Source: Caulobacter sp. SL161 (GTDB taxonomy: Bacteria; Pseudomonadota; Alphaproteobacteria; Caulobacterales; Caulobacteraceae). Taken from it: a stretch of DNA of 64,000 nt. Of this stretch, positions 2,681 to 56,534 are shown in pieces. A program made the position numbers and the translations under genes. The notes under the pieces are model-generated. The model was not told where the DNA came from, searched no databases, and saw only the letters and a program-made list of their open reading frames with translations. Location: positions 3,100,001 through 3,164,000 of the forward strand of contig NZ_JAPPRA010000001.1 in assembly GCF_026672375.1 (NCBI RefSeq). Reading direction: 5' to 3'. The number at the start of each line of letters is the position of its first letter. Within the stretch, counting starts at the first letter, position 1.

Positions 2681-3412
2681 CTATTGCGGGACTTGGAACA
2701 CCAGCGGGACGGTCACCTGGCCACCGTCGACGGGCGCGCCGTCGAGGGTCTTGGGCTTCATCCGGAACAGGCGCGACAAGCGGATAGCCGCATCGCCGAA
2801 GCCCATGTCCGCCGGCGATTCGGAAACCACCGAGCAGCCTTCCAGAGTGCCCTTAGCCGTCACGGTGCACGAGATCGTCGCGCGACCGCTGACTTCCATC
2901 CGCTGAGCACGGTCCGGATAGTACCGGGCCATGTCTTCACCCGAGGGCTTACGGGCCCAGTCGGGACGCGTGATGACCGACGCACGCGCCGGCGGGTTCG
3001 AAGGAACCGGCGGCGTGGGCGAGATCACCGGCGGAGCCGTTTGTTCCACCCGCTTTTCAACGGGAGGGATCGGCAGCGGCGGCGGCGGCGTCACGTCCGG
3101 CGGCGGAGCCACCGGCGGGCGCGGCTGAACCACGGCCGGAGGCGGCGGCGGTTCATTGGTCGGCGGCGGCGGCGGCGGAGGCGGCGGCGGCGGCGGCGGC
3201 GGCGGAGGCAGCTCCACAACCGTCGCGTCGTCCGAGTACTCCTGGAACACGGCTTCGAACTTCTGCTTCGCCAGGTAGGCGAAGAGCAGCGCGTGCAGAC
3301 CAGCCACGACCGTCAGGGAGATACCAAAGGCACCGAAACCCTTCTTGCGACGTGGACCGTCCGAGGTGAGCGGATCGTAGCGGCGATGCTCGGGCGTATT
3401 TTGATCAGCCAT
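2681..3412 (-). CDS. tonB: Energy transducer TonB
   Basis: 243 residues. A basic cytoplasmic N-terminus (RRKKG) precedes one membrane segment at about 29-48, then a proline-rich periplasmic spacer (16 consecutive prolines at 69-84, more to ~125), and a C-terminal TonB domain at ~160-243 ending in VPLVFQVPQ. TonB transmits proton-motive force from ExbBD to outer-membrane TonB-dependent receptors, of which this window holds one (41714-44350). It is the last gene of the exbB-exbD-tonB operon, 10 bases after exbD, and is followed by a strong terminator. The proline run is encoded by a near-uniform CCG tract. Confidence 0.95.
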   Translation of the reverse strand: MADQNTPEHRRYDPLTSDGPRRKKGFGAFGISLTVVAGLHALLFAYLAKQKFEAVFQEYSDDATVVELPPPPPPPPPPPPPPPPTNEPPPPPAVVQPRPPVAPPPDVTPPPPLPIPPVEKRVEQTAPPVISPTPPVPSNPPARASVITRPDWARKPSGEDMARYYPDRAQRMEVSGRATISCTVTAKGTLEGCSVVSESPADMGFGDAAIRLSRLFRMKPKTLDGAPVDGGQVTVPLVFQVPQ

Positions 3413-3422
3413 GCATCACCCC

Positions 3423-3857
3423 CTACTGGCTATCATCCCGTCCGACGAGAGCCACGCTATAGAAGCCGTTATCCTGGAGGGTGTTCATCACCTCCATGAA
3501 AGCCCCGTAGCGAACCTTTTCGTCGGCCCGGATGAAGATGCGCTCCTTGCTCGGATCGCGACGGCCCATGTTCTTGGTGATGTCGTAGCCCAGCTCATCG
3601 ATGCTGGTCTCGTTGTCACCAAGGTAGAGCTGCCCCGACTGTTTGATCGAGACGTAAACCGGCTTGGATGGAGGCGGCGAGGATTTCGCCACCGCCGGCG
3701 GCAGGTTCACTTCGACCGACACGGAGGCCAGCGGAGCCGCCACCATGAAGATGATCAGGAGCACCAGCATAACGTCCACGAAGGGCGTAACGTTGATCTC
3801 GCTGTTCTGTTCGACGTTGAACCTGTCGCCCCCACCGCCTGAAAGCTTGGCGGCCAT
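3423..3857 (-). CDS. exbD: Biopolymer transport protein ExbD
   Basis: 144 residues, usual length for ExbD. A single membrane helix at about 23-42 (INVTPFVDVMLVLLIIFMV) carries the essential membrane aspartate (D28), and the rest is a small periplasmic domain. ExbD forms the proton-conducting motor with ExbB that energises TonB. It lies 5 bases after exbB and 10 bases before tonB, so the three are one transcription unit. Confidence 0.96.
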   Translation of the reverse strand: MAAKLSGGGGDRFNVEQNSEINVTPFVDVMLVLLIIFMVAAPLASVSVEVNLPPAVAKSSPPPSKPVYVSIKQSGQLYLGDNETSIDELGYDITKNMGRRDPSKERIFIRADEKVRYGAFMEVMNTLQDNGFYSVALVGRDDSQ

Positions 3858-4771: not shown

Positions 4772-5347
4772 CTGTCGCCAGTTCCTGATTGGTCTAGCAC
4801 GTTTGGACCGAGGGTCGTCGCGCGAGAGCGTCTCCACCCTAACTCTGAATAGTCCGCCTGGAGGTCGATAGCTCTCACCCCGGGCGGACCCGCTTCGCTG
4901 CGCTCGACCCGTTACGCCCCTCACGAGGACCAGCCTCCAGAAGGATCGTTTCGAAGCGCGTGCAACCGACGCCCTTTTGGGGCTCCGGTCTTACCGCAAT
5001 GTTAGAATTGCGGCTGGGGTCCTTTGGCAACCCCTTTTCGTACCGTCAAGGGTCTCATTTGGGCACAAATTCATCGTCACGCCCCCGACCCCCTGGCGTT
5101 CGCCGCAGTGCACAAAACGGTTTTCCGGATTTCGGGGCGGTTTTTCCCTGCCAACGAGAAAAACCATGCTGCACTGCAGCAAGGCAACAAAACGCGGGTC
5201 TTTGAAGAAAGGCGCCTGTCTGCACGGCAGATGGGAGCTTCGCGCCGCGCGAACAAGCTCGCATGGGGAAGAAACGGCGCCGAGGCCGACCGAGCACCGG
5301 CCGACCTGAAGGTCAAAGAGACTTCCGCTGGGAAGAACTGGAAAAAG
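4772..5347. other. Intergenic region upstream of exbB
   Basis: 576 bases between exbB and tRNA-Phe with no convincing gene in any frame. It must hold the exbB promoter. I looked for an obvious Fur-box-like inverted repeat near the start codon and did not find one. Confidence 0.5.
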
Positions 5348-6756: not shown

Positions 6757-7358
6757 GGGCGATAACCCAGTCCGGAAAGCAGGTTCAGGGTCTCATAGAG
6801 CGGCAGCCCCACCACGCTGGGATAGGAGCCCTGCAGGTCAGTGATGAATCCGCCCGCCAAGCCCTGGACGCCGTAACCGCCGGCCTTGCCCCGCCATTGC
6901 CCGCTGGCGACGTAACCGTCGCGCTCAGCGTCGGACAGGCGCTTGAAGCCGACCCTGGTCTCGACCAGACGGGTCGCCGTACGACCGCCGGGCGCGATCA
7001 GCGCAACGCCGGTGAGAACCTTGTGATTCCGCCCCGACAGGAGCTTGAGACAATAGAGCACATCCGCCTCGGTCTCGGCCTTGGGCAGGATACGACGACC
7101 CACGGCCACCACGGTATCGGCGGCCAGGACAAAATCGCCCGGCGCGCGCGCAGCGACCACCCGCGCCTTCTCGAGCGCGAGTCGCAGCGCGTGACGGCGG
7201 GGCGTCTCGTCGCGAAGCGGGGTTTCGTCGATGTCGGCGGGATCAACCCGGTCGGGCGTAACGCCGACCTGGGCGAGCAGGTCGAGGCGCCGGGGGCTCG
7301 CGCTGGCCAGCACCAGCGCCGGCCCGGCGGCCACTGGGGCGGCCGTCTTCGGAGCCAT
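6753..7358 (-). CDS. maf: Maf-like nucleoside triphosphate pyrophosphatase
   Basis: 201 residues. The Maf signature LVLASASPRRLDLL opens the domain, followed by DETP and the conserved DFVLAADTVV segment with its catalytic aspartate. Maf proteins hydrolyse non-canonical or modified nucleotides (dTTP/UTP/m5U types) and so act in nucleotide sanitation. It sits between infA and the RNase gene and overlaps the latter by four bases. Confidence 0.94.
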   Translation of the reverse strand: MAPKTAAPVAAGPALVLASASPRRLDLLAQVGVTPDRVDPADIDETPLRDETPRRHALRLALEKARVVAARAPGDFVLAADTVVAVGRRILPKAETEADVLYCLKLLSGRNHKVLTGVALIAPGGRTATRLVETRVGFKRLSDAERDGYVASGQWRGKAGGYGVQGLAGGFITDLQGSYPSVVGLPLYETLNLLSGLGYRP

Positions 7359-7365
7359 CGGCGTC

Positions 7366-7584
7366 TTACTTGAAGCGGTAGGTGATACGGCCCTTGGTCA
7401 GGTCGTAAGGGGTCATCTCGACCAGGACCTTGTCACCGGCCAGAACGCGGATGCGGTTCTTGCGCATCTTGCCGGCGGTGTGAGCGATGATCTCGTGATC
7501 GTTTTCCAGCTTCACGCGGAACGTGGCGTTCGGCAGCAGTTCGCTGACCGTACCGGGAAACTCGAGCAGTTCTTCCTTAGCCAT
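7366..7584 (-). CDS. infA: Translation initiation factor IF-1
   Basis: 72 residues from the ATG at 7584 ([11 protein letters not shown]), the exact usual IF-1 length; the ATG four codons upstream was rejected because IF-1 always starts MAKEE. One S1/OB-fold: [25 protein letters not shown] is split here only for length, with the [11 protein letters not shown]-binding loop and the [11 protein letters not shown] end. Binds the A site of the 30S subunit during initiation. Confidence 0.97.
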
Positions 7585-35424: not shown

Positions 35425-37575
35425 ATGAGCACGTTCCCCGACTTCACCAAGATCGACTTCGCCGAAGTCACCGCCCCGGCCGCCCCGAAGGGCGAGGCCT
35501 GGAACACGCCTGAAGGCGTCGCTGTGGCTCCGGCCTTCGACGCGCAAGATGTCGCCGGGCTGGACTTCACTGGCGGCTTCCCGGGTGTCGCGCCGTTCGT
35601 GCGCGGCCCCTACCCGACCATGTACGTGACCAACCCGTGGACGGTGCGTCAGTACGCGGGCTTCTCGACGGCGGAAGACTCCAACGCGTTCTATCGGCGC
35701 AACCTGGCGGCCGGTCAGATGGGCCTGTCGGTGGCCTTCGACCTGGCCACCCACCGCGGCTATGACAGCGACCACGAGCGAGTGAAGGGCGATGTCGGCA
35801 TGGCGGGCGTGGCCATCGACTCGATCCTGGACATGCGCACGCTGTTTTCCGGCATCCCGCTCGACAAGATGAGCGTGTCGATGACCATGAACGGCGCGGT
35901 GCTGCCGATCCTGGCGCTCTATATCGTCGCGGCCGAGGAACAGGGCGTCAGCCCCGACAAGCTCTCGGGGACGATCCAGAACGATATCCTCAAAGAGTTC
36001 ATGGTGCGGAACACCTACATCTATCCGCCCGCGCCCTCGATGCGGATCATCTCGGACATCTTTTCATACACTTCGAGCAATATGCCGAAGTTCAACTCGA
36101 TCTCTATCAGCGGCTATCACATGCAGGAGGCCGGGGCGACGGCCGACCTGGAGCTGGCCTACACCCTGGCCGACGGCGTCGAGTACGCCCGCGCCGGCGT
36201 CGCGGCCGGCATGAGCATCGACGCCTTCGCGCCGCGCCTGTCGTTCTTCTGGGCCATCGGCATGAACTACTTCATGGAAGTGGCCAAGATGCGCGCCGCG
36301 CGCCTGCTGTGGGCCCGTCTGATGAAGCGCGAGTTCGATCCCAAGGACGACCGCTCGCTGTCCCTGCGCACGCACAGCCAGACCTCGGGCTGGTCGCTGG
36401 CGGCGCAGGACGTGTTCAACAACGTCGCCCGCACCTGCGTCGAGGCCATGGCCGCCGTGAACGGCCAGACCCAGAGCCTGCACACCAACAGCCTGGACGA
36501 AGCCCTGGCCCTGCCGACCGACTTCTCGGCCCGGATCAGCCGCAACACCCAGCTGTTCCTGCAGATGGAGAGCGGTACGACCCGCGTCGCCGACCCCTGG
36601 GGCGGCAGCTACTATGTCGAACGCCTGACCTACGAACTGGCCCAGAAGGCCCTGGCCCATATCGAAGAGGTCGAGGCGCTGGGCGGCATGGCCAAGGCCA
36701 TCGAGCAGGGCCTGCCCAAGCTCCGTATCGAGGAAGCCGCCGCCCGCACCCAGGCCCGCATCGACAGCGGCAAGCAGAGCGTGGTCGGCGTCAACCGCTA
36801 CAAGCCCGAGGTCGCCGACGACATCCCGGTGCTGAAGGTCGACAACAGCGCAGTGCGCGCCGCCCAGCTGGAGAAGCTGGCCCGCCTAAAGGCCGAACGC
36901 GATCCGGCCGCCACCGAAGCGGCCTTGAAGGCGCTGGAGGACGGCGCGCGAGGCAATGGGAACCTGCTGGCCCTGGCCGTCGATGCCGCCCGCGCCAAGG
37001 CCACGGTCGGCGAGATCAGCTATGCGCTGGAGAAGGTGTTCGGTCGTCACCGCGCCGAGATCAAGTCGATCCAGGGGGTCTATATGAAGGAGGCCGGCAA
37101 CGATCCGACGACGGCTCGCGCCAAGGCCATGGTCGAGGCTTTCGAGCAGGCCGACGGCCGCCGTCCCCGCATCCTCATCGCCAAGATGGGCCAGGACGGT
37201 CACGACCGCGGCCAGAAAGTGATCGCCACGGCCTTCGCCGATCTCGGCTTCGACGTCGACATCGGCCCACTGTTCCAGACGCCCGCCGAGGCCGCCCGCC
37301 AGGCGGTGGAGAACGACGTCCACGTGGTGGGCGCCAGCTCACTCGCGGCGGGTCACCTGACCCTGGCCCCGGAGCTGAAGGCCGAGCTCGCCAAGCAGGG
37401 CCGCGACGACATCCTGATGGTCGTGGGTGGGGTCATTCCGCCCCAGGACTTCCAGGCCCTTCGCGACGCCGGCGCGGCGGCGATCTTCCCGCCCGGCACG
37501 GTGATCGCTGAGGCGGCCATCGAGCTGCTGGATCAGTTGAACCGACAGCTGGGCTACACCCAAGCGGTCGCCTGA
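35425..37575 (+). CDS. scpA: Methylmalonyl-CoA mutase large subunit
   Basis: 716 residues, full length (also called mutB). The barrel is recognised by [34 protein letters not shown] and [11 protein letters not shown]. The C-terminal cobalamin domain (from about 585) has DGHDRG, with the histidine that ligates cobalt. Its last 44 codons are repeated as a diverged fragment at 38162-38293. The start ATG follows mutA closely, so both are one operon. Confidence 0.97.
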
Positions 37576-37632
37576 GCCGCTTGCCGACCGCGAGCGTCAA
37601 TGTAACCCCCGGTGGCAAACCCGAAGGTTCAC

Positions 37633-38085
37633 ATGTCAAGATCGTTGAAGAGAACAACCCGTCTCCGCGTCGTCTTGGCATTGGTGTTCGCGTTTGTGCT
37701 CCCGGGACTCTTGCTGGGAGAGGCCTACTATCTTCTGGATCCTTCAGTAGGCCGCGAGGAGACGGGGCCTGGCTTCGCCGTGATAGGCGTTGTGTTCGGC
37801 TTCTTTTTGGGTTGGCCCTTTGTCCTGGGCGCGGCCGTCGCCTGGAGCATTCTGGACAGTCTGGAGAGACACTTTGCCTGGACTGCGGCCTTGGTCGGCG
37901 TTCTGACCGGGCTCGCCGTCTCCGCCTATGCCTTCCGCAATGGCATGTTTCAGACTCAGCCCGTCGCCTACCCTCTTTGCGCGGCGATCGGACTGGCGAC
38001 AGGTCTTGGCGTCTGGTGGATCGCTTACGGTCGCCAAAGCCGGCTGCCCGTAAAGCTCGCGCCAAAGACGCGGCTCGTCCTCTAA
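37633..38085 (+). CDS. Small integral membrane protein
   Basis: 150 residues from the ATG at 37633 (MSRSLKRTTRLRVVLALVF), preceded by GAAGG; a GTG seven codons upstream is possible. Four hydrophobic helices alternate with short loops, and the basic N- and C-termini point to cytoplasmic ends. I recognise no family. Its stop overlaps by two bases the duplicated 3' end of a DUF4112 gene, just as the Uma2 gene does at the intact copy, so this is one of two alternative cassettes at the same spot. Confidence 0.7.
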   Translation: MSRSLKRTTRLRVVLALVFAFVLPGLLLGEAYYLLDPSVGREETGPGFAVIGVVFGFFLGWPFVLGAAVAWSILDSLERHFAWTAALVGVLTGLAVSAYAFRNGMFQTQPVAYPLCAAIGLATGLGVWWIAYGRQSRLPVKLAPKTRLVL

Positions 38086-38152
38086 CCGCCCTTCTTGCGG
38101 AACATCCCACGCTTGTGTTGGAGCGCTCTAAGGCGATGTGGTCGGGCAGCCC
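38082..38152 (-). pseudogene. 3' fragment of a DUF4112 gene
   Basis: About 71 bases that match the 3' end of the intact DUF4112 gene (38909-38980) at roughly 85-90% by eye, with one single-base deletion. It starts at the same stop codon, CTA on the plus strand. It is a remnant, not expressed. Confidence 0.85.
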
Positions 38153-38161
38153 TTAGCGGCT

Positions 38162-38293
38162 CAGGACTTTCAGCCCCTGCGCGACGCCGGCGCCGCAGCG
38201 ATCTTCCCGGCGGGGACGGTCATCGCCGAGGCCGCCATCGAGCTGTTGGACCAGCTGAACCGGCAGTTGGGTTACACGCAGGGCGCGGCCTGA
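38162..38293 (+). pseudogene. 3' fragment of methylmalonyl-CoA mutase gene
   Basis: 132 bases encoding 43 residues (from [15 protein letters not shown] to LGYTQGAA) that repeat the last codons of the intact mutase gene, where they read [15 protein letters not shown] to [11 protein letters not shown] identity is about 85% by eye with mostly synonymous changes, so the copy came from a related strain rather than a fresh duplication. No start codon or upstream part remains. Confidence 0.9.
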
Positions 38294-38336
38294 CCAGCGA
38301 GTGTGCGACCAGCCTCAGGCATGCTAGACTAGGGTC

Positions 38337-38912
38337 ATGAACGCCCTGGCTCGAGCGCTGGAGACCTCGCAACAGCACCGCTTCACGCTGGACGATGTGC
38401 TGCGCATGCAGGAGGCGGGCATCCTCGACGAGAGCGCTCGGGTCGAATTGATCGATGGAGCGCTGGTCGAGATGGCGTCCGAAGGGGAAGCCCATTCGCG
38501 GCTGAAAATGCAGATCGCGAAACAGTTCATCCTATCCTTCGGCGACGCAGTTCAGGTGATGATCGAATCGACCCTGAGGCTGTCGCCGACCAACGCGCCT
38601 GACCCAGACCTCTATCTCTATGATCAGGCGCTTTCGCTCGGCGAAATCAATGGGGCGAACGTGGGCCTCGTCATAGAGGTGGCCCAGTCAACCCTGCGGA
38701 GCGATCTGGCCTTCAAGGCCGAGCTCTACGCCCAACATGGTGTTCGCGACTACTGGGTCGTGGACGTGAACACCGATACGCTGATCGTACATCGCGGTCT
38801 GGCGGGGGGCGTCTATCGCGATGTGACGCATCACGCGGCGCGCGAGACGGTCACGGCGCTTGTCCTGCCAAGCGTGTCACTGTGCCTGGCTGAACTGCCC
38901 ATCATTCGCTAA
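38337..38912 (+). CDS. Uma2 family (DUF820) PD-(D/E)XK nuclease-like protein
   Basis: 191 residues. Uma2/DUF820 fold: RVELIDGALVEM near 37, APDPDLYLYD with the catalytic aspartate, IEVAQSTLRSDLAFKAELY with the E..K pair, and VRDYWVVDV. All key residues are present. The family is a restriction-endonuclease-like fold of unknown role, common in cyanobacteria and scattered as single genes elsewhere. The gene ends over the stop of the convergent DUF4112 gene by four bases and is flanked on its left by duplicated gene ends. Confidence 0.9.
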   Translation: MNALARALETSQQHRFTLDDVLRMQEAGILDESARVELIDGALVEMASEGEAHSRLKMQIAKQFILSFGDAVQVMIESTLRLSPTNAPDPDLYLYDQALSLGEINGANVGLVIEVAQSTLRSDLAFKAELYAQHGVRDYWVVDVNTDTLIVHRGLAGGVYRDVTHHAARETVTALVLPSVSLCLAELPIIR

Positions 38913-39370
38913 CCGCCCTTCTTGCGGAACAGCCCTCGCTTCTTCTTGGAGCGCTCCAGGGCGATGTCGTCGGGCAGACCGTGGCGGGCCTCGATGTCCT
39001 TCTGCAGCGCCTTGGCCGCCATCAGGTGGCCGGGGAACAGCATGTCGACCACCGAGCCGGCGAAGGGCACCGCGTCGGTCGCGGTGTCGGCCAGCACATA
39101 GGCCAGCATCCGCGCGACCGTGGACAACGACGCCCCGGCGCTGATGGCGTTGAAGACAAGCAAGGCCCCCGCCCCGATGCTGTAGAGCGGGCCGACGCCA
39201 GGCACCCACGACAGCACGCCGTCAAGGCCCAGTCCGAAAGGTCCGAGCCCGATCAGACGGTCCGACAGGCCCTTGATGCTTTCGGCCGACCGCCAGGCGC
39301 GATGGGCCTTGGCGCGGCGATCTGTGTGACGGTCGGAATAGTCGGCGGAGACAGAGATGTCGTCGGTCAT
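38909..39370 (-). CDS. DUF4112 family membrane protein
   Basis: 153 residues. The DUF4112 core is LSDRLIGLGPFGLGLDGVLSW then PGVGPLYSIGAG, with two or three hydrophobic segments, and a basic C-terminal tail (KKKRGLFRKKGG). Function unknown. A close paralogue of the same length lies 36 bases upstream on the same strand, making a tandem pair. A fragment of this gene's 3' end is repeated at 38082-38152. Confidence 0.92.
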   Translation of the reverse strand: MTDDISVSADYSDRHTDRRAKAHRAWRSAESIKGLSDRLIGLGPFGLGLDGVLSWVPGVGPLYSIGAGALLVFNAISAGASLSTVARMLAYVLADTATDAVPFAGSVVDMLFPGHLMAAKALQKDIEARHGLPDDIALERSKKKRGLFRKKGG

Positions 39371-39406
39371 GCTGTGCTCAACGCTCCGTCCCTGTTGTCG
39401 TTACCG

Positions 39407-39868
39407 TCAGCCCAGGAAGACGACCCGTCGCTTCTCCTTGCCGGCCTGGATACGGGCCAGCAGGTCACGGTACTCTTGCGTCGCCTGGACCTCCTTGCGG
39501 GTCCCTTCAAAATAGATCGTGTCGTCCATGTGCTTGGTCAACATGTCGGCCGACCACTTGTGGCCGGTGAACAGCACGTCCGCCGCCTTGCCCGCCACGG
39601 GGATCGAGCCGGCGACGGTGTCGATCAGGATGATCGCGCAGATCTGGATGATGATCATCGGCGCGGCCCGCGCCCGCACCGCGTCCAGCACGATCAGGCC
39701 GCCCGCGCCCAGGCTGTAGAGCTCGCCCGCCCCCGGAATCCAGGTCAGCAGGCCATCAAGGCCCACGCCAAAGGGGCCCACCCCCACGACATTGTCGGAG
39801 AGCTTTTTCACCCGCTCCACATTGGCGCGGATGTTGTGCAGCTCGACGTGCGATTTCGCGAAGATCAC
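39407..39868 (-). CDS. DUF4112 family membrane protein (tandem paralogue)
   Basis: 153 residues from a GTG at 39868 with GGAG seven bases before it; no ATG fits in frame. It shares with its neighbour the core KKLSDNVVGVGPFGVGLDGLLTW (shortened) and IPGAGELYSLGAG. The C-terminus is different, with EYRDLLARIQAGKEKRR. The two genes are co-directional and probably co-transcribed. No function is known. Confidence 0.88.
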   Translation of the reverse strand: MIFAKSHVELHNIRANVERVKKLSDNVVGVGPFGVGLDGLLTWIPGAGELYSLGAGGLIVLDAVRARAAPMIIIQICAIILIDTVAGSIPVAGKAADVLFTGHKWSADMLTKHMDDTIYFEGTRKEVQATQEYRDLLARIQAGKEKRRVVFLG

Positions 39869-40054
39869 CAAGGGGCTCCGGGACGCGGTAAACGTGGGCA
39901 ATCTGCCTGAAGCACGGCCCCGCAGGAAGTGGCGGCGGGCCAGATTCCCGCCCTGAGCGAACAGCGTGATCAAAAGTCTCGCGTGCGGAGGGAGCCCCTC
40001 GCGAAAGACGAGGTTTGCGCCTAAGTTAATGAGAAGGTCCGCCAGGATTCTCGG

Positions 40055-40372
40055 ATGCTGATCACGACTACGCCATTCATCGAAGGCCGCCCCGTGCAGG
40101 AGTACAAGGGCGCGATCTACGCCCAGTCGATCCTGGGCGCGAATGTCGTTCTCGACCTCCTGGCGGCGATCCGCGACTTTATCGGCGGCCATTCCAAGTC
40201 GTACGAACGCGTCCTGGCCCGCGCCCGCGAGGACGCGATGAAGAACCTCATCAAGGAAGCCGAGAAGCTGGGGGCCAACGCCATCCTGGCGGTCGACCTC
40301 GACTACAACACTGTCGGCCCGCAGGGCTCGATGATGATGGTGTCGGTATCCGGGACCGCCGTCGTCCTCTAG
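40055..40372 (+). CDS. YbjQ/UPF0145 family protein
   Basis: 105 residues, usual length. Matches UPF0145: MLITTTPFIEGRPVQEYKG at the start, REDAMKNLIKEAEKLGANAI in the middle and MMMVSVSGTAVVL at the end. The family forms small ring-like oligomers and is sometimes called heavy-metal binding, though function is not proven. Divergent from the DUF4112 pair. Confidence 0.93.
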   Translation: MLITTTPFIEGRPVQEYKGAIYAQSILGANVVLDLLAAIRDFIGGHSKSYERVLARAREDAMKNLIKEAEKLGANAILAVDLDYNTVGPQGSMMMVSVSGTAVVL

Positions 40373-40576
40373 GCGGGGGAAAAGCCGCCCCTCAAGGATA
40401 GCTCCCGCCCAGCCGCTACGGGCCCCGCGGCGCGTGTCCCCAAAGCTTCCGTTGCGGCCCGGATGTTGACCGGCTCGGGGAGACGGCGCCCGGCGCGAAT
40501 TGCCAGTTGCAGGCCTGCGAACGCTCCTGTATCGAACGCCCTCCCCCGCCGACGTGATTTGCGTCGACACCCGGAT

Positions 40577-40650
40577 GGCCCGGTGGCGGAGTGGTGACGC
40601 AGCGGACTGCAAATCCGTGCACCCCGGTTCGATTCCGGGCCGGGCCTCCA
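40577..40650 (+). tRNA. tRNA-Cys (GCA)
   Basis: 74 nt with encoded CCA. Acceptor GGCCCGG pairs fully with CCGGGCC, the discriminator is U73 as expected for tRNA-Cys, and the anticodon loop CTGCAAA gives GCA. Confidence 0.98.
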
Positions 40651-54056: not shown

Positions 54057-55045
54057 GGCAGAGCGGGTTCCTGCGTGGGAGTGTCAACTGACCGCCGCCA
54101 CGCCACAAACTTCGCCAGACCCTCGGCCAGCTTGACCTTGGGCTTGTAGCCGCAGAGCGCGTGGAGCTTGTCGATATTGGCGTAGGTGGCGGTGACGTCG
54201 CCGGGCTGCATGGGGCGGAAGACCTTGTTGGCCTCGATCCCCAGCGCCGCTTCCAGCGTGGTGATCATCTCCATCAGGCCGACGGGGTCGTTGTCGCCGA
54301 TATTGTAGACCTCGTGTCCCCCCTTGGCCGGCGGATTGTCGAGAACGCCGAGGATCCCATCGACGATGTCGTCGATATAGGTGAAGTCGCGGGCCATCTT
54401 GCCCTCGCCATAGACCTCGATCGTCTCGCCCTTCAGCATCTTCTCGGTGAAGCTGAAATAGGCCATGTCCGGGCGGCCCCACGGGCCATAGACGGTGAAG
54501 AACCGTAGGCCCGATTGCGGGAAGCCGTAGAGCTTGGCGTAGCTCTGGCTGAGCAGTTCGCACGAGCGCTTGGTGGCGGCGTACAGCGATACCGGGCTCT
54601 CGGCCGGATCACTCTCCTTGAAGCCGTCACCGTTCAGCGGACGATCGCCATACACGCTGGACGAGCTGGCGTAGACCAGATGCTCGACGCCGGCGTGGCG
54701 GCAGGCTTCCAGCACCGACAGATGGCCGGCCAGGTTGCTGCGCTCGTAGGCGAACGGGTTCTCGATCGAGTAGCGAACGCCGGCCTGGGCGGCCAGATGG
54801 ATCACCTTCTGGGCGCCGGACGCCTTTACCAGGTCGGCCAAGGCCTCATGGTCGGCGATGTCCATGCGGAGCATCGTAAAGCCGTCGCGGCCGTCCAGGC
54901 GCGCCGCGCGGGCCTCCTTGAGAGCCGGGTCGTAGTAGGCGTTGAAGACGTCGACCCCGATCACCGCTTCGCCGCGATCGAGCAAGCGCTCGGCCACATG
55001 GTAGCCCACGAAGCCGGCCGCGCCCGTGACGATGATCGGAGGCAT
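54053..55045 (-). CDS. NAD-dependent epimerase, UDP-glucuronate 4-epimerase type
   Basis: 330 residues. Extended SDR: GAAGFVGYHVAERL is the NAD-binding start, YSIENPFAYERSNL and YAATKRSCELL hold the active-site tyrosine and lysine, and RFFTVYGPWGRPDM is the substrate-binding stretch typical of UDP-GlcA 4-epimerase. With the UDP-glucose dehydrogenase next to it, UDP-galacturonate would be made. It begins three bases after ugd ends. Confidence 0.92.
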   Translation of the reverse strand: MPPIIVTGAAGFVGYHVAERLLDRGEAVIGVDVFNAYYDPALKEARAARLDGRDGFTMLRMDIADHEALADLVKASGAQKVIHLAAQAGVRYSIENPFAYERSNLAGHLSVLEACRHAGVEHLVYASSSSVYGDRPLNGDGFKESDPAESPVSLYAATKRSCELLSQSYAKLYGFPQSGLRFFTVYGPWGRPDMAYFSFTEKMLKGETIEVYGEGKMARDFTYIDDIVDGILGVLDNPPAKGGHEVYNIGDNDPVGLMEMITTLEAALGIEANKVFRPMQPGDVTATYANIDKLHALCGYKPKVKLAEGLAKFVAWRRSVDTPTQEPALP

Positions 55046-55048
55046 GCC

Positions 55049-56356
55049 TTAGCCGCGCCCGATGGAGGCGTAGGTAAAGCCGTGGCGCTCCATCTCAGCC
55101 TGCTTGTAGACGTTGCGCAGGTCGACCACGACCGGGGCCTTGAGCAGGCTCTTGACGCGATCAAGGTCGAGCGCGCGGAACTGGTCCCACTCGGTCAGGA
55201 TCACCAGGGCGTCGGCGCCCTCGGCGGCGTCATAGGCGCCCGCCTTGAACTCGACGCCGGCCAGCATGTGCGCGGCTTCCTTGGCGCCTTCGGGGTCGAA
55301 GGCCTGGACCTTCGCGCCCATGGCCTGCAGGGCCGGCAGGATGTCGAGGCTGGGCGCGTCGCGCATGTCGTCGGTGTTGGGCTTGAAGGTCACGCCCAGC
55401 ACGCCGATGGTCTTGCCGCTGAGGTCGCGGGTGCCCATGGCTTCGGCGACTTTCTCGGCCATAGCCTTCTTGCGGGCGGTGTTGACCTCGACCGTGGTCT
55501 CGATCAGCCGGGTCGGCGCGCCGTACTGCTGGGCCGTCTTCACGAGGGCGATCGTGTCCTTCGGGAAGCAGCTGCCACCATAGCCGGGGCCGGCGTTGAG
55601 GAACTTGCCGCCGATCCGCTTGTCCAAACCAATGCCCTTGGCCACCGACTGGACGTCGGCGCCGACCTTCTCGCAGAGGTCGGCCATCTCGTTGATGAAG
55701 GTGATCTTCATCGCCAGGAAGGCGTTGGCCGCGTACTTGATCAGCTCGCTGGTGCGACGGCCGGTAAAGACGATCGGGGTCTCGTTCAGCGACAGCGGGC
55801 GGTAGAGGTCGCGCATCACCGCCTGGGCGCGCTCATCGTCGGTGCCGACGACCACACGGTCGGGACGCTTGAAGTCCTCGATGGCCGCGCCTTCGCGCAG
55901 GAACTCCGGGTTCGACACCACGGCGAACTGGGCGTCGGGGCGGACCTTCTTGATGATCGCCTCGACCTCGTCGCCGGTGCCCACCGGGACGGTCGACTTG
56001 GTGACCACCACGGTGAAGCCGTCGATAAGACCAGCGATCTCTTCGGCCGCCGCATAGACGTACGACAGATCGGCATGGCCATCGCCGCGACGGGTCGGCG
56101 TGCCCACGGCGATGAACACCGCGTCGGCGTCCTTGATTGCCTGGGCGCCCTCGAGCGTGAAGAACAGACGGCCCTCGCGCACGTTGCGCGCCACCAGGTC
56201 ATCCAGGCCCGGCTCGAAGATCGGGATCTCACCGCGCTCGAGGCGCTCGATCTTGCTCGGATCCTTGTCGATGCACGTCACCACGTGACCGAAGTCGGCG
56301 AAGCACGCCCCAGACACCAGGCCCACATAACCGGTGCCAATCATCGCTACGCGCAT
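55049..56356 (-). CDS. ugd: UDP-glucose 6-dehydrogenase
   Basis: 435 residues from the ATG at 56356 (MRVAMIGTGYVGLVSGACF). GTGYVGLVSG is the NAD loop, GPGYGGSCFPKDT the active site with the thioester cysteine, and GVTFKPNTDDMRDAPS the C-terminal nucleotide-binding part. It oxidises UDP-glucose to UDP-glucuronate. First gene after the initiating transferase gene, which lies 178 bases upstream on the same strand. Confidence 0.97.
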   Translation of the reverse strand: MRVAMIGTGYVGLVSGACFADFGHVVTCIDKDPSKIERLERGEIPIFEPGLDDLVARNVREGRLFFTLEGAQAIKDADAVFIAVGTPTRRGDGHADLSYVYAAAEEIAGLIDGFTVVVTKSTVPVGTGDEVEAIIKKVRPDAQFAVVSNPEFLREGAAIEDFKRPDRVVVGTDDERAQAVMRDLYRPLSLNETPIVFTGRRTSELIKYAANAFLAMKITFINEMADLCEKVGADVQSVAKGIGLDKRIGGKFLNAGPGYGGSCFPKDTIALVKTAQQYGAPTRLIETTVEVNTARKKAMAEKVAEAMGTRDLSGKTIGVLGVTFKPNTDDMRDAPSLDILPALQAMGAKVQAFDPEGAKEAAHMLAGVEFKAGAYDAAEGADALVILTEWDQFRALDLDRVKSLLKAPVVVDLRNVYKQAEMERHGFTYASIGRG

Positions 56357-56534
56357 ATTTTCCCCACCGCGCTCCCTGCCCAATCAGGCAGGACATAAAA
56401 GTTGAACTGAAGACCAGTCTGGTACGGCCGTGTACAAGCTGGAGTGTGACTACTTGGTTGAAATGACACCGTTGCGACGGGTGTTTGTTGAACTCCCGTC
56501 GCCGAACCATAGCGGTCGCCTTGAGGACCAATCC

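Follow-up and report, generated by a model that had tools for sequence, protein, structure and literature searches.

Minimal mobile elements (MMEs) are by concept free of an integrase, a transposase and mobility functions of their own. In Neisseria, as described in PMC3082526, a conserved gene pair brackets whole-gene cassettes that vary and are incorporated by homologous recombination. Homology-facilitated illegitimate recombination adds DNA through one homologous side and one illegitimate joint, and is described in PMC2884548 and PMC3240628 for naturally competent species and, rarely, for E. coli, where according to the same two papers linear DNA may alternatively form a circle that integrates through a single crossover. 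In the T6SS clusters of Vibrio cholerae, immunity gene arrays arose by sequential displacement: new modules were inserted beside old ones, and displaced genes and gene ends were left behind (PMC5361080). For these arrays the authors of that study suggest a process similar to homology-facilitated illegitimate recombination.

We consider it very probable that the Caulobacter locus described here, a gap between the genes for the large chain of methylmalonyl-CoA mutase and a DUF4112 protein, is a slot with lineage-dependent content, and that two of its alleles, mutase-X1-DUF4112 and mutase-X2-DUF4112, are joined head to tail in the window (the whole stretch of DNA analysed, 64,000 nt). Like an MME, the slot has two conserved flanking genes with differing whole-gene cassettes or none between them, and the slot ORFs examined are without integrase, transposase or mobility functions. 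Unlike the MMEs, which were compared between strains of Neisseria, the Caulobacter slot was compared between species with one genome each, and in the window it stacks two alleles, between which duplicates of both flank ends are found. As in homology-facilitated illegitimate recombination, the joint at ~38156-38162 links unrelated gene ends; that process is known from experiments and genome comparisons, whereas a comparable event in the window would be read from one natural scar. In contrast to the V. cholerae arrays, where the region upstream of an effector module serves as the anchor and effector-immunity pairs move, single unrelated genes lie here between convergent conserved genes. Because the MME type of slot is known and stacking has a precedent in Vibrio, we regard the locus as a clear fresh example and not as a new system. 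Gene gain is seen here at a readable intermediate stage, with both parental allele types present in relatives and the joint preserved. The locus suggests how accessory genes can build up between conserved neighbours with no mobile element involved, in a genus whose gene transfer agent is proven. It also provides a signature that can be counted across genomes: a right-flank end followed by a left-flank end inside a slot.

The window sequence runs from the mutase gene through X1, a copy of the DUF4112 3' end, a copy of the mutase 3' end and X2 (Uma2) to the intact DUF4112 gene (Table 1). This order, with two cassettes between duplicated gene ends, had been proposed in the original prediction and is present in the sequence, as are a mutase-end copy of 132 bases (38162-38293) and the ending of both cassettes on an overlapping CTAA: at 38082 the X1 stop overlaps the stop of the DUF4112-end copy, and at 38909 the stops of X2 and the intact DUF4112 gene overlap by 4 nt. 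The DUF4112-end copy, given there as 71 bases, measured 74-78 nt (38082-38155, with similarity traceable to 38159) and carries one 1-nt deletion. An identity of 85-90% had been assigned to both copies, which holds for the DUF4112-end copy (86% over 79 nt) and is too high for the mutase-end copy (82.6% over 132 nt). When the window's gene ends were compared by BLAST with its own gap, the mutase-end copy was found at E = 1e-35 and the DUF4112-end copy at E = 4e-22, values that rule out chance similarity. Changes in the mutase-end copy are mostly synonymous, as had been noted, with dN 0.043 and dS 1.06 relative to the intact end. The two copies are the sole direct repeats of at least 50 nt lying within 4 kb (E ≤ 1e-10) in the 64 kb window; two other repeat families in it are weak or low-complexity. 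By eye, X1 may actually begin at the in-frame ATG at 37633.

Table 1. Features of the mutase-DUF4112 slot in the window.
Feature	Position	Strand	Basis
Methylmalonyl-CoA mutase large chain, intact, left slot flank	35425..37575	+	Pfam PF01642 E=9e-231, PF02310 E=3e-18
X1, 157 aa membrane-protein-like ORF	37612..38085	+	ORF; same-slot homologues in other genomes
DUF4112 3' end, decayed copy	38082..38159	-	86% over 79 nt to 38909-38987; X1/DUF4112 joint as in G070
Joint of DUF4112-end copy and mutase-end copy	38156..38162	.	Compared with G070 and G072
Mutase 3' end, decayed copy	38162..38293	+	82.6% over 132 nt to 37444-37575; nearest G072
Spacer before X2, 43 nt, with TGCTAGACT box (-10-like, by eye)	38294..38336	+	Aligns with mutase-X2 spacer of G072
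X2, Uma2-family protein, 191 aa	38337..38912	+	Pfam PF05685 E=3e-25
DUF4112 protein, intact, right slot flank	38909..39370	-	Pfam PF13430 E=4e-17

Slot content was compared between species in 75 Caulobacter genomes including that of the window, one per species. DUF4112 was matched in 71/75 genomes and the mutase C-terminus in 70/75. Sixty-six stretches were taken from 64 genomes; 63 entries (window included) had both genes on one contig and 62 of them had the genes convergent, so that the conserved flanking genes are convergent on one contig in 62/75 genomes. The slot counts exclude genomes with the two genes on different contigs (G049, G051, G054, G057, G065, G059 and G073), those with one or both matches missing at the thresholds used (G021, G031, G038, G060 and G067), and one in which the genes are not convergent (L051/G007). 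X1 and X2 homologues were accepted at E ≤ 1e-4 when the match covered 60% or more of their length, with identities down to 28%, and a site was called empty when the mutase-DUF4112 gap was at most 30 nt.

The 62 slots (window included) comprised 13 empty sites, 14 with X1 and no X2, 15 with X2 and no X1, 8 with both and 12 with other content. The expectation of a swap point was borne out in that content varies genus-wide, although the slot holds from none to several genes and not one gene each time. All eight slots holding both genes have X1 before X2; seven of them lie outside the window and hold X1- and X2-like genes together with no scar. Stops overlap by exactly 4 nt at 7/13 empty sites, and ten slot ORFs have the same 4-nt stop overlap on DUF4112. 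In 8/62 slots a conserved dehydrogenase-like gene occupies the position adjacent to DUF4112, within the slot and on the DUF4112 strand, so the right neighbour differs in these. No integrase, transposase or recombinase family was found among 41 other slot ORFs (at least 100 aa, E ≤ 1e-5) or in X1 and X2; the ORFs were picked by length, a set that includes some spurious frames and possibly misses some genes. Alleles with a single cassette, whose existence had been anticipated, occur among the five genomes closest in DUF4112: one (G070) has X1 only, another (G072) has X2 only, and three (G069, G044 and G027) are empty. In G070 the gap of 506 nt with X1 alone is exactly as in the window, and the X2 protein of G072 is 95% identical to that of the window. 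A quick tree built from the 62 mutase ends, with 22/59 forks open, requires 24 changes among the five slot states, compared with a mean of 37.5 after shuffling. Among the matches listed for open-licence PMC papers, we found no report of the locus.

As a control, 15 neighbouring gene gaps ranged from -1 to 312 nt, with a spread within one gap of at most 172 nt (9-14 of 14 genomes); across this set of 14 the mutase-DUF4112 gap varied between -4 and 1604 nt, and that of the other convergent pair in the syntenic stretch between 1 and 122 nt (11 genomes). Genes for this control were predicted from codon composition, and in each genome the pair of matches lying closest together was used, which favours small values. 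The gap 18586/18760 upstream ranged from 113 to 8349 nt in 5 genomes and the gap 17008/17033 measured 18 and 1482 nt in 2 genomes, so the mutase-DUF4112 slot may not be the sole variable place in the region.

The two sides of the joint have different closest matches. With 38060-38345 as the query, part 1-93 (the X1 end and DUF4112-end copy) matched G070 over 93 nt at 86%, and part 103-286 (the mutase-end copy, spacer and X2 start) matched G072 continuously over 184 nt at 88%; weaker matches of these two kinds came from G030 (76%) and G035 (73%). Matches were obtained in 67 of the other 74 genomes, and in none did a match cross the joint between the DUF4112 end and the mutase end. No clear microhomology was seen by eye at 38156-38162, where both sides have decayed. 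The mutase-end copy is identical to G072 at 117/132 positions, to G070 at 115/132 and to the window's own gene at 109/132, and 14 of 62 other mutase ends are closer to it than its own intact end. Its dS of 1.06 to its own gene compares with 0.44 to G072, 0.46-0.54 to five of six other relatives and 1.16 to the sixth. Four of the sites that separate the alleles pair the intact end with G070 and the copy with G072, one shows the reverse, and eight changes occur in the copy alone, the pattern that decay would give. On the mutase-end copy alone G072 is thus only narrowly best, and when unaligned codons were dropped the empty-site G044 was level with it (0.886 for G044, 0.884 for G072); the link of G072 to the window rests mainly on the spacer and X2. 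The DUF4112-end copy matches its own intact end at 64/74 positions and G070 at 63/74, and on these figures it does not discriminate, its own end being ahead by one base. The idea that the fragments would be closer to other genomes than to the intact genes holds for the mutase-end copy and, by that single base, fails for the DUF4112-end copy.

At the nucleotide level the window is 84% identical to G070 in X1 and 90% identical to G072 in X2, and in G072 30 nt separate X2 from DUF4112; judged from these comparisons, neither genome is the actual parent. The intact DUF4112 end beside X2 is 95% identical to G070 and 90% to G072, and over the initial 200 nt of DUF4112 on the X2 side G070 is the nearest relative. 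Among the five relatives of the flank scan X2 is present only in G072. A simple tract from an X2 donor would not predict an intact DUF4112 end nearer to G070 than to G072. Identity to the five relatives is mosaic along the flanks, DUF4112 included: in the mutase gene G070 is nearest or tied in 9/16 windows of 100 nt, and in 11/12 windows past 39.2 kb the nearest relative, alone or tied, is G069. Compared at the level of sequence, this mosaic and the frequent changes of slot state agree with homologous recombination in the flanks. A second DUF4112-like stretch (39524-39844, minus strand) adjoins the first in the window, and two DUF4112 matches occur in 54/75 genomes. The stretch 39209-40380 is 92-100% identical to G069 (at least 96% in 11/12 windows), compared with 90-93% for the blocks from 27 to 37.6 kb; it is perhaps a separate, more recent exchange tract. 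Among the seven relatives listed, the continuous match ends at 40380 in five and near 39.4 kb in two. A tRNA-Cys gene lies at 40577-40650, and the region at and beyond it looks like a rearranged site; nearby sequence in G069 corresponds to 54092-56485 of the window and contains a 1227-nt repeat of 99.6% identity.

The anatomy, the two parental allele types in relatives and the closer match of the mutase-end copy to other genomes' ends are observed directly, and the following steps best account for them. Slot content turns over between Caulobacter lineages, most likely through ordinary recombination in the conserved flanks. Because an empty site has the mutase end before the DUF4112 end, the order in the window needs the head-to-tail joining of two alleles. 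One allele would have been broken ~74-78 nt inside the DUF4112 end and the second at a point 132 nt ahead of the mutase stop; one side probably paired by homologous recombination while the other was joined illegitimately, or a circularised fragment may have entered through a single crossover. The duplicated ends would then have decayed, with X1 and X2 remaining in use. The Caulobacter gene transfer agent may have brought in the DNA; C. crescentus particles carry ~8.3 kb that recombines into recipients, as described in PMC9632790. ComEC and DprA family matches are present in this genome and are not specific, since E. coli has them too. Non-homologous end joining through Ku was rejected, as this genome has no Ku match. 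The original prediction combined two alleles, which agrees with the match of the joint to G070 on the left and G072 on the right, and had X2 added to a resident X1; the arrival of X1 in an X2 resident is equally possible. That prediction is thus supported in its structure and largely in its interpretation.

A tandem duplication of the locus in one strain, spanning the mutase end through the DUF4112 end, after which one cassette was replaced or diverged, would also yield a DUF4112 end followed by a mutase end, with no donor at the joint, and the DUF4112-end copy is nearest to the resident end by its one base. We think it improbable: X1 and X2 are different proteins (no family and Uma2, respectively), so a second import would be needed anyway, the spacer before X2 matches G072, and the mutase-end copy is closer to 14/62 other genomes than to its own gene. 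The seven scar-free genomes with the same gene order could instead point to an ancestral X1-X2 pair, both inherited vertically, with the scar inserted between them later. Their X1 copies, however, have 42-48% protein identity (one extra copy 31%) and their X2 copies 39-72%, and the five genomes closest in DUF4112 have X1 only, X2 only or, in three, neither, which leaves this account very unlikely. An empty allele inserted between X1 and X2 was rejected, as it would donate the mutase end and then the DUF4112 end, the opposite order.

Phages and islands that insert at the ends of tRNA and other genes bring a replacement end with them and push the original one aside, and a displaced 3' end downstream of the gene, as seen here for the mutase, is their usual trace. 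A site-specific element in the mutase 3' end that supplied the present end has next to no probability all the same: the interval of 586 nt that separates the mutase ends contains X1 and the DUF4112-end copy and no integrase, the two mutase ends differ by 17%, and the extra DUF4112 end is left unexplained. We rejected it, since it is contradicted by the X1-only allele of G070, which lacks a displaced mutase end. One doubtful extension of the head-to-tail joining is that slots between convergent genes regularly grow from one gene into ordered arrays through such fusion of alleles, with the scar-free X1-X2 and X1-X2-X2 slots as older, end-trimmed products and the window and G053 (below) as intermediates.

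Both cassettes seem to be in use, since each is under purifying selection in pairwise comparison (dN/dS of 0.12 for X1 relative to G070 and 0.07 for X2 relative to G072). No Pfam family matched X1 at E ≤ 0.001, and NCBIfam and PADLOC yielded weak matches only. X2 is the sole Uma2 match in this genome and matches the PADLOC candidate defence family PDC-S03 (E = 1e-16). Read by eye, TG(C/T)TA occurs shortly before the ATG in 18 of the 21 X2 copies listed and may be an extended -10 promoter followed by a very short leader. X2 may bring its own putative promoter, because this motif precedes the start codon in most listed copies; in the window the putative box sits in the spacer carried with the mutase-end copy.

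Mutase-end scars were found in 2/49 occupied slots, window included. The second is in G053 (L092), where a second copy of the mutase 3' end (98 nt, 83%) lies behind a Uma2-like gene, 830-927 nt past the mutase stop, and a convergent 197 aa ORF with no Pfam family ends a few nt past the copy. The DUF4112-end half of the scar was not recognised there, because the ~45 nt before the mutase-end copy fit neither the DUF4112 end nor the end of the neighbouring dehydrogenase-like gene clearly. Gene-end matches of 15-40 nt in the slots of L052, L054, L061, L082 and L100 were too weak to be taken as scars; one of them, a 27-nt match to the mutase end in L061, could represent an old scar. Partial cassettes show other turnover: a 46-residue X2 start precedes an X1-like gene in L077 (G035, slot positions 32-169), and a 20-residue X2 end stands alone in L099 (G064, slot positions 44-103). 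The stretch from G072 (L112) contains three copies of a dispersed repeat of ~120 nt with 82-83% identity, at 3350-3475, 5068-5188 and 7320-7434.
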